Shown here in pieces: positions 5,968 through 28,950 of a stretch of 44,578 nt of DNA. Where the stretch lies: assembly GCA_022562295.1 (NCBI GenBank), contig JADFPO010000002.1, positions 21,795 through 66,372 on the forward strand, written 5' to 3'. Made by a program: the position numbers and the translations under genes. The DNA comes from Gemmatimonadota bacterium (GTDB lineage Bacteria; Gemmatimonadota; Gemmatimonadetes; Gemmatimonadales; GWC2-71-9). The notes under the pieces were generated by a model. It did not search any database and was not told where the DNA came from. It saw only the letters and a list, made by a program, of their open reading frames with translations. Positions within the stretch are counted from its first letter, which is position 1. The number at the start of each line of letters is the position of its first letter.

Positions 5968-7356
5968 ATGCCAATAGAGTTATCAGCCGTCGAAACCTGG
6001 GCGCGAGTGCTCGAAGAGGCGCGCCAGAAGCTTCCCGAAGCCACGATGCGGACGTGGCTGGAACCGACCGAACCGACTTTGTTGGAGAACGGGCGGTTGG
6101 TCGTGAGCGCTCCGGATCAATTTTCGGTGGAGTGGAACGAGTCGAAGCATGCCGGCCTGCTTTCGCGCCTCGCATCGGAGATCGCCGGTACTCCCATCGA
6201 TATCGTGTTCCGGGTGCAGGCCGAGCGCACCGAGCGCCCGCAGATGGATTTCTTTGTCGCCCCGCCGCGGCAAGACGACGGCGGTACAGCGATGGACATG
6301 GCCACGCCGCTAAATCACCGCTACACATTCGACACGTTCGTTATCGGCAAATCCAACGAGCTCGCGGCCGCGGCCGCGCACGCCACCGCCGAGGCTCCCG
6401 GCAAGACTTACAACCCCCTTTTCATCTACGGAGCGACCGGTCTCGGCAAGACACACTTGATGCAGGCGATTGCTCACGCACTTATTCAGCGCAATCCCTC
6501 GTATCGAGTGGTTTACATGGGTGCGGAGCAATTCATCAACGAAGTGATCGAGAGCATCCACGGCCGCTCGATGCCTGAGTTCCGCCGCCGTTACCGAACC
6601 GAACCGGATGTGTTCCTTATTGACGACGTCCATTTCCTCGAGGGCAAGGAAATGACGCAGGAGGAGTTCTTTCACACGTTTAATGCCCTACATGAGGCCG
6701 GCAGACAGATTGTCGTCACGTCCGACCGACCTCCGAAGGAGATTCCGGGGTTGGAGTCGCGTTTGGTGAGTCGATTTGAGTGGGGCATGGTGGCAGATAT
6801 CGGTCAACCCGACCTCGAACACCGGACGGCCATTCTACGTAAGAAGGCCGAGCAGGAGCACCTCGAGCTCACGATCCCGGATGAGGTTCTACGCTTCATA
6901 GCCGAAAACGTCCGTACCTCAGTGCGTGAACTCGAGGGCTCCATCATCAAACTGCTATTGTTTGCGTCCCTCAAGCACCGAGAAGTCACGATCGAGTTGG
7001 CTCGGGATGCTCTCGCAGACAAGATCCACCAGGACGATACGCCGAACATCGGCTCGCTAGCCGGGAGCCCTTCCGTAGATCGAGTCCAAGAAGTGGTTGC
7101 GCGCCGGTGGGGTGTAACTCCCGAGGGATTACGCTCCAAATCGCGCACGAAATCCCTCACTGTACCGCGTCACATTGCGATGTTTCTCGCGCGGGATCTG
7201 CTAGGTATGCAGCTCGTCGAGATCGGTCAAGCATTCGGGGGGCGAGACCACTCTACCGTAATACACAGCGTTGGAAAGGTAGAAAACGACTTGCGACGCG
7301 ACCGCCAACTGCGCGAGCGGATCGAGTTGGCAAGACGCGAATTATCCGCACCGTAA
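5968..7356 (+). CDS. dnaA: Chromosomal replication initiator DnaA
   Basis: A 462-residue initiator AAA+ ATPase that binds DnaA boxes and opens oriC. Domain I begins at the typical ELSAVETWARVLEEARQKLP. The AAA+ domain has Walker A GATGLGKT (155-162), Walker B VFLIDDVHF and a sensor-type VVTSDRPP. The C-terminal DNA-binding domain contains the DnaA signature (GGRDHSTVIHSVGKVE). The frame extends 28 codons further upstream, but those residues do not look like DnaA and would start before the promoter. The putative oriC follows immediately, then dnaN. Confidence 0.98.
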   Translation: MPIELSAVETWARVLEEARQKLPEATMRTWLEPTEPTLLENGRLVVSAPDQFSVEWNESKHAGLLSRLASEIAGTPIDIVFRVQAERTERPQMDFFVAPPRQDDGGTAMDMATPLNHRYTFDTFVIGKSNELAAAAAHATAEAPGKTYNPLFIYGATGLGKTHLMQAIAHALIQRNPSYRVVYMGAEQFINEVIESIHGRSMPEFRRRYRTEPDVFLIDDVHFLEGKEMTQEEFFHTFNALHEAGRQIVVTSDRPPKEIPGLESRLVSRFEWGMVADIGQPDLEHRTAILRKKAEQEHLELTIPDEVLRFIAENVRTSVRELEGSIIKLLLFASLKHREVTIELARDALADKIHQDDTPNIGSLAGSPSVDRVQEVVARRWGVTPEGLRSKSRTKSLTVPRHIAMFLARDLLGMQLVEIGQAFGGRDHSTVIHSVGKVENDLRRDRQLRERIELARRELSAP

Positions 7357-7599
7357 TACACATGCGTACTGGTCCAACTGTTTGAAAGTTATGGGAAACA
7401 TGGGAAACGCTGAGATGCTATGACGCTTATCCATTTGAGTCCACACTCGCCAACAGAGAACCAACAGCGCCATATAGTCTGTAATGCTGTAGTAGCATTG
7501 GGTTAGACAACTTCTCCATATTTCCCGAACCACTACTACTACTACTACTAACTGGTTATCTAGTATCTGAAGTAGGCTCTTATCCACGCGGGGAACGGT
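7357..7599. other. Putative chromosomal origin of replication (oriC) with DnaA-trio tract
   Basis: A 243-bp AT-richer non-coding gap between dnaA and dnaN. DnaA-box-like sequences are TTATCCACG (7580-7588, one mismatch to TTATCCACA) and TTATCCATT (7427-7435). An uninterrupted ACT tract, six units plus A (7532-7550), reads as TAG repeats on the minus strand, like the DnaA-trio element that DnaA uses to unwind and load on single-stranded DNA. Between the trio and box lie GGTTATCTAG and a short GC stretch. A perfect tandem 9-mer, ATGGGAAAC twice, occupies 7391-7408. Location and elements together support an origin; the exact limits are inferred. Confidence 0.75.
7391..7408 (+). repeat. Tandem 9-bp repeat in the origin region
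   Basis: ATGGGAAAC occurs twice head to tail with no spacer (7391-7399 and 7400-7408), 35 bp after the dnaA stop. It could be a protein-binding iteron or a divergent DnaA box pair (GTTTCCCAT on the other strand). Function unknown. Confidence 0.7.
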
Positions 7600-8709
7600 A
7601 TGAAGTTTACAATAACGAGAGAGCGTCTTCAGGAGGGTCTTGTGGCAGTCGCTGCAAGCGTTCCAACCCGGACCACACTGCCAGTCCTCTCAAACATTCT
7701 CGTTGAGGCAACGAAAAACGGACTACGGCTAGCCGGAACAGATCTCGATATCGCTGTGAGTACTGTTGTAGCTGCCGAAGTCGTAGAGGAAGGTGCTGTC
7801 ACGCTTCCGGCGAAGAAGCTGCTGGAGATTGTGCGAGAACTGCCCAGCTCGTCCATCAACATCGCAAGTGCGGGTGAGCAGCGCGTGACCATCGAATGTG
7901 GGCAGTCGCGCTTCAAGCTGCTGGGTATACCGCGGGACGAGTTTCCTACATTTCCGTCAGTGTCATTCGATGACGCGTGGAAGATGACGTCTGGGGATAT
8001 CCAGAAGCTGATCAACCACGTTGCGTTTGCGGCGTCCACAGAGGAGAGCCGACCCATTCTCAACGGCGTGTTGTGGGAGATGCGGGAGGATAGAATGCGT
8101 ATGGTGGCGACGAACGGACACCGGCTAGCGAAGATGGACGTCCCCGTGTCCGGTGGGTCTGTCAATGCCGACTTAATAGTGCCGCCGAAGGCGCTGGAGC
8201 AGATCCGGAAGCTTTTTGGCCCTGCCGACGAAATCGACGTTGCCCAGAGCGACAACCACCTTGGGTTCCGGTCGGGTGACACGATGGTGTTTACACGCCT
8301 AGTCGAGGGACCCTATCCGAATTACGACCAGGTCATCCCACGTGATAACGACAAGGCTGCTATCATCGATAAGCAGACGCTCGCCGCCGCCATCCGACGC
8401 GTTGGCGTCGTGGCGAGCGACCAGACGCATCGAGTACGCCTCTCGTTTAGTGCCAGCACCCTGAAGTTCTCTGTAAACACGCCGGACCTAGGCGAAGCGC
8501 AGGATGAAATTCAAGTTAGTTACGAGGGCGAACCGGTCGAGATCGGCTTCAACGCGACCTACTTGTTGGAATTGCTGAAGCACATGCCGACCGACGAAGT
8601 GCGGTTTACACTAAAAGCCCCGGAACGCGCCGCCACGATCGAGCCCATTGCCTGGGACGACCCTGCCTCTTACCTCTGCCTCGTCATGCCACTTCGGCTG
8701 GTTGACTAG
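7600..8709 (+). CDS. dnaN: DNA polymerase III sliding clamp, beta subunit
   Basis: A 369-residue clamp protein; a dimer encircles DNA and tethers the replicase. It has the typical start MKFTITRERLQEGL, a central ESRPILNGVLWEM segment that begins the second clamp domain, and the closing DPASYLCLVMPLRL, normally P-x-x-x-x-x-YL-MP-R. Three homologous domains account for the length. The ATG directly follows the putative origin. recF and gyrB, which often follow dnaN, are not present; a convergent unrelated operon comes next. Confidence 0.98.
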   Translation: MKFTITRERLQEGLVAVAASVPTRTTLPVLSNILVEATKNGLRLAGTDLDIAVSTVVAAEVVEEGAVTLPAKKLLEIVRELPSSSINIASAGEQRVTIECGQSRFKLLGIPRDEFPTFPSVSFDDAWKMTSGDIQKLINHVAFAASTEESRPILNGVLWEMREDRMRMVATNGHRLAKMDVPVSGGSVNADLIVPPKALEQIRKLFGPADEIDVAQSDNHLGFRSGDTMVFTRLVEGPYPNYDQVIPRDNDKAAIIDKQTLAAAIRRVGVVASDQTHRVRLSFSASTLKFSVNTPDLGEAQDEIQVSYEGEPVEIGFNATYLLELLKHMPTDEVRFTLKAPERAATIEPIAWDDPASYLCLVMPLRLVD

Positions 8710-10672: not shown

Positions 10673-11033
10673 GGGGGTGGCGGAGTCGTAAGCCGAGTCC
10701 TGTTCGCCGTGCTGGCGGATGGTCATCTATCTGGGACGGCAGTCGCCTGTCGCCTCTAGCGGCCTACCCGCGGTTCAAACGGTCCGGGCAGGACCTCACC
10801 GCCTATTTGGCCTTGCTCCGACTGGGGGTTACCCTGCCACGGCTGTTGCCAACCGCGCGGTGGGCTCTTACCCCACCATTTCACCCTTACCCGAAAAATC
10901 GGGCGGTTTGTTTTCTGTGGCCCTGTCCGTCGTCTTTCGACGCCCAGGCGTTACCTGGCAATCTGCCCTATGGAGCTCGGACTTTCCTCGACCCGGCCGT
11001 AGCACGGGCCGCGACCATCTCACTCCACCAACC
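10673..11033 (-). ncRNA. rnpB: RNase P RNA (bacterial type A)
   Basis: The minus strand carries the conserved RNase P RNA blocks: GAGGAAAGTCCGAGCTCC near the 5' end, ACAGAAAACAAACCGCC, a GGTAAGGGTGAAA-type P-stem, AGATAGATGACCATCC and ACAGGACTCGGCTTA near the 3' end. The ends were set by pairing GGTTGGTGGAGT (5') with ACTCCGCCACC (3') as helix P1, giving about 361 nt. The RNA is the catalytic subunit that removes 5' leaders from pre-tRNA. The protein partner rnpA is 5 kb away. No terminator is evident before the small downstream operon. Confidence 0.96.
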
Positions 11034-27253: not shown

Positions 27254-28690
<1,437 letters not shown>

Positions 28691-28950
28691 TAGGAATCTA
28701 AGATGGAGCGCTTGGCTTGGCTACGGCCCAAGACCGTGGTGCGCTTGCGGATGGGGGATCGGGCGGGAAACTTAGACACCCTGCCCACGACTCTGTGAGT
28801 GACATGATGACAATGGGATGTCCCACAGCGGCGAGTCCGTTGCTCTTGATGGCAGGCCTCGTACCGGCCGGTCACGCTCAGACGCTCGGGCCGCGGCGGC
28901 CTGACGAACGAGATGCGTGGATGCCCAGGAAGAGAGGTAGGAACTAACAA

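Follow-up and report, generated by a model that had tools for sequence, protein, structure and literature searches.

The gap between dnaA and dnaN in this Gemmatimonadota genome is very probably the chromosomal origin of replication (oriC), with a canonical DnaA-trio basal unwinding system (BUS) as its right half; we put the probability of this reading at roughly 0.92. It extends the known Bacillus mechanism to another lineage and introduces no new one. The observations on which it is built are the anatomy of the site, its spacing and conservation, the identity of the base-capturing residues of DnaA, the presence of DciA, and the GC skew near the locus. The window, that is, the whole stretch of 44,578 nucleotides that was analysed (G000:C206:21795-66372, + strand), is part of a contig in a 3.79-Mb assembly of 210 contigs. 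Pfam domains identify the genes on both sides of the gap (7357-7599) as genuine: dnaA, encoding 461 amino acids, at 5971-7356 on the + strand (PF00308, PF08299, PF11638), and dnaN, encoding the beta sliding clamp, at 7600-8709 on the + strand (PF00712, PF02767, PF02768). No sigma-70 promoter or terminator was found at the gap site. (Two structured RNAs lie farther along the window on the minus strand: class A RNase P RNA (RF00010, 301 bits) at 10673-11031, about 2 kb beyond dnaN, and a TPP riboswitch (RF00059) at 28597-28694, immediately 5' of an ORF on that strand (27254-28609) that resembles thiC.)

Published rules for recognizing a BUS specify a DnaA-box with at most 2 mismatches, separated by 0-16 nt from the trios and on the correct side and strand, followed by three or more trios whose middle base is adenine (3'-NAN-5'); a second, tandem box with up to 4 mismatches is optional. 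Box searches were scored against TTATCCACA, the E. coli consensus. Six perfect 3'-GAT-5' trios occupy 7533-7550 on the minus strand (CTAx6 on the + strand), as defined by repeat search, family profile and genus alignment; the original prediction had read the tract as six uninterrupted ACT units, and these are present at 7532-7549, with 0 expected (100 shuffles). The presumed loading box, TTCTCCATA, stands on the correct side, 12 nt ahead of the first trio (7512-7520, + strand, 2 mismatches), where the box scan and the best offset of the family profile, -21, both place it; that it matches the E. coli consensus only at the 2-mismatch level counts against the BUS reading. A degenerate tandem box, ATTTCCCGA (7520-7528, + strand, 4 mismatches), lies within the 12-nt spacer at the second family optimum, offset -13. 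Farther upstream on the same strand are a weak box-like sequence, TTAGACAAC (7503-7511), and, from the box scan, the DnaA-box-like TTATCCATT (7427-7435, 2 mismatches). Beyond the trios come an AT-rich stretch (7551-7579), a putative DNA unwinding element according to the family AT profile, and another + strand box-like sequence from the scan, TTATCCACG (7580-7588), 11 nt ahead of dnaN. Boxes with no more than 2 mismatches thus number three in the gap (TTATCCATT, TTCTCCATA and TTATCCACG), against 0.75 expected.

Conservation was followed in 95 genomes of the family that matched DnaA strongly, from which the 3' end of dnaA and the sequence beyond it were extracted; 87 gaps were usable, the window's own included, with dnaN within reach in 86. 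All 87 contain a CTA/TAG tract, and in nearly every case a degenerate DnaA-box of the same orientation stands 12 nt away. Every gap matches four CTA units at 9 or more of 12 positions, 68 of them at 11 or 12, and 36 perfectly; shuffled gaps never reached a match of 11 and reached 10 in 0.7%. The conservation profile was anchored on the tract, whose own column frequencies are accordingly not independent evidence. The columns to its left do count as such because only the tract served as anchor: CCA...TTTCC is mostly conserved at 0.74-0.90, as is a TT at -30/-29 (0.89 and 0.83), within TTAGACAAC in the window. Box similarity in the family gaps peaks sharply at -21, the offset that corresponds to the 12-nt spacing, with -13 as second optimum, and AT content is 0.63-0.77 at +10..+50 compared with 0.34-0.40 in the GC-rich flanks. 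In the alignment of the genus, conservation is among the highest along the stretch that runs from the boxes to the end of the fifth trio. The same layout of box and trios is seen in most of the phylum sample from other families, a minority of loci outside the family being without a clear BUS at the settings used, and TTATCCACA-12 nt-CTACTA recurs in the same orientation in diverse Bacillota and in other phyla. In the literature searched, no relevant account of a Gemmatimonadota oriC turned up.

The tract had also been called strikingly long, which is half right: its perfect uniformity is uncommon, while its number of trios is not unusual. The 3.79-Mb assembly as a whole contains a single CTAx6; the run is found in just one other of 102 family genomes, and in five of 395 genomes of the phylum, three of which carry it inside the dnaA-dnaN gap; six perfect units are found in 2/87 family gaps. 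Within the genus the sole distinctive unit is the sixth, which is CTA in the window and TTA, ATT or GTT in relatives; the alignment fits substitution of this unit, and expansion by slippage was rejected on that ground. As to number, B. subtilis has six trios and H. pylori eight (PMC10316083), and in the solved complex six trios are bound by seven DnaA protomers (PMC10721633). Several Bacillota origins (L095, L099, L101, L114) have tracts of mixed CTA/TTA type, six to eight units long, 12 nt from TTATCCACA; thus, six units is not long.

GC skew supports placing a replication origin at the dnaA-dnaN gap. The clearest case is a complete chromosome of 4,636,964 bases (G113; dnaA start at 104), for which skew was computed from sampled 20-kb stretches: its sign changes at dnaA and near 2.2 Mb, the stretches between 0.3 and about 2.05 Mb being positive and those from 2.4 Mb onward negative, one of the latter near zero. 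A second genome (G054:C1) is consistent with this, its skew being mixed, mainly negative ahead of dnaA and positive past it. In the window's own contig, too, skew that is mostly negative gives way to positive values close to the gap; that the minimum, and the turn to positive, falls about 5 kb to the right of the gap counts against this assignment. Of three other genomes, G075 has too little skew for use, and G051 (whose single contig has runs of N) and G100 have no usable pattern. An oriC with a DnaA-trio element, as originally predicted, is borne out by the skew together with the conservation of the tract in relatives.

Past the AT-rich stretch the family gaps frequently carry a second motif, AGYAG, that reads as trios on the opposite strand; AGTAG at 7571-7575 (+ strand), picked out by the family motif counts, is its short form in the window, whose genome has it only weakly. 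It is present at +20..+55 in 59/87 family gaps, its reverse complement in 9, and in upstream windows it occurs in 5/199 (3%); it is in the majority in 19 of 36 genera, as against two for the reverse complement (p = 8e-5). In most cases 35-36 nt separate it from the first CTA (L003-L088). Many genera and half of the window's own genus do without it, among 38 loci from farther afield whose tract is clear it appears in only two (L094, one of the pair, may itself be from the Gemmatimonadota), and no mirrored DnaA-box was found beside it in the family gaps. It is conceivable, though doubtful, that oriC in this family and part of its order has a second, opposite-strand set of trios beyond the AT-rich stretch, and with it a single-strand DnaA site for each strand. 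Nor did the literature searched yield anything relevant on trios of the opposite strand. The motif is offered as a lead and not a finding.

Could the tract and the downstream AGTAG instead be the two sides of a hairpin, in DNA or in the RNA leader of dnaN, with structure as the thing conserved? The two motifs are indeed complementary (CTACT... and AGTAG), and in many gaps they stand opposite one another with some 15-30 nt between them. However, mean pairing is 7.99 within sequences and 7.94 between sequences; with one sequence per genus the values are 7.56 and 7.67, and 70% of permutations are at least as high. There is no covariation of AGYAG with the forward tract in the family gaps by this within- versus between-sequence comparison, no Rfam match at the site, and a hairpin leaves the conservation of box and spacer unexplained. 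The hairpin is very unlikely, and was rejected for want of any within-sequence pairing excess or covariation.

The original prediction had chosen TTATCCACG, correctly located at 30 bp from the tract, as a strong box acting together with it, and had proposed that opening leans on an unusually long trio tract, boxes being few. TTATCCACG is the closest single match to consensus within the gap, and a site with up to 2 mismatches recurs at about +45, chiefly in nearer relatives. But it lies on the wrong side: DnaA loads 3'->5' from box onto trio (PMC6669920), so that the partner box must stand to the left of the window's tract, and TTATCCACG cannot serve; in every clear BUS found in other phyla the box is on the left. 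Box conservation divides along the same line, with the left-hand core columns kept and the right-hand site retained in only 17/87 gaps. The conserved loading box is thus the degenerate TTCTCCATA, 12 nt upstream. Nor is an unusual reliance on the trios supported: their number is that of B. subtilis, and family gaps contain degenerate box cores upstream (per gap, about 2 in forward and 2.3 in reverse orientation). All in all, a partnership of TTATCCACG with the tract is scarcely tenable.

That the tract is a functionless chance microsatellite born of replication slippage is extremely improbable: the phylum can produce such runs at other places, as a long CTA array without relation to dnaA in one genome (G235) shows, but position, register and spacing are kept across the 87 gaps, the sixth unit looks substituted rather than inserted, and most CTAx6 genomes have the run at this very place. 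The G235 array (G235:C1:357924-357968, L296) is long and unbroken in TAG/CTA, has no dnaA or dnaN match nearby, and is unlike the oriC tracts.

The BUS reading finds its counterpart in the protein. The B. subtilis residues named as reading the trios (PMC10721633) are all identical in the window's DnaA, according to a full-length alignment to structure 8btg: Asn187/N190, Ile190/I193, Ile193/I196, Arg202/R205 and Glu228/E232 (B. subtilis/window). DciA is encoded in the window's genome and in 27 of 30 relatives. DnaD was not found: NCBIfam TIGR01446, which matched both positive controls, B. subtilis and L. lactis, is absent from the window's genome and from 10 relatives. (Two DnaA-like matches of 37% identity, at G000:C29:26767-27480 and G000:C25:71083-71721, cover only the AAA+ region, residues 109-351 of the query, and leave the DNA-binding end unmatched; these could be Hda-like regulators or helicase loaders.) By homology, we infer the following sequence of events. 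DnaA would bind at 7512-7528, where the two degenerate boxes stand in tandem, perhaps with assistance from the weak site (7503-7511) and from boxes farther upstream; box-bound DnaA would be directed 3'->5' to the TAG trios of the minus strand (7533-7550); the growing oligomer would capture two bases of each trio and open the AT-rich DNA on the right of the tract, where the helicase would be loaded, probably with the help of DciA.

The closest known relative is the BUS of B. subtilis oriC (PMC6669920, PMC10721633, PMC8287927), which shares the location between dnaA and dnaN, the side of the tract on which the box lies, the tandem box in a 12-nt spacer, the six trios, the AT-rich stretch beyond and the trio-reading residues. 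It differs in that its boxes are less degenerate (TTATCCACA in place of TTCTCCATA), in that its trios mix TAG, AAG and TAA while those of the window are all TAG, and in its DnaD, for which 11 genomes on the Gemmatimonadota side yield no family match, DciA being present. Opposite the B. subtilis trios lies a DnaD recognition element (PMC10201434), and the + strand of the window (CTACTA...) has the same 5'-TnnT-3' spacing; with DnaD not found in the window's genome or its relatives, the element is here without a known reader. Tandem TAG repeats are also shared with the eTrio of Thermotoga maritima oriC, where they are bound single-stranded by DnaA oligomers (PMC10316083); there, three TAGs lie between the annotated trio and a TTATT motif, whereas in the window six follow directly on the box spacer.

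If the opposite-strand trios are real, they could steer the loading of the second helicase in bacteria without DnaD, and a functional mirror motif would make the placement of that helicase testable. The main finding has a broader bearing: the 12-nt spacing between box and trios is kept as in the Bacillota, in a lineage in which DnaD was not found, and the claim that bacteria ancestrally opened their origins by the BUS gains a conserved case from the little-studied Gemmatimonadota.
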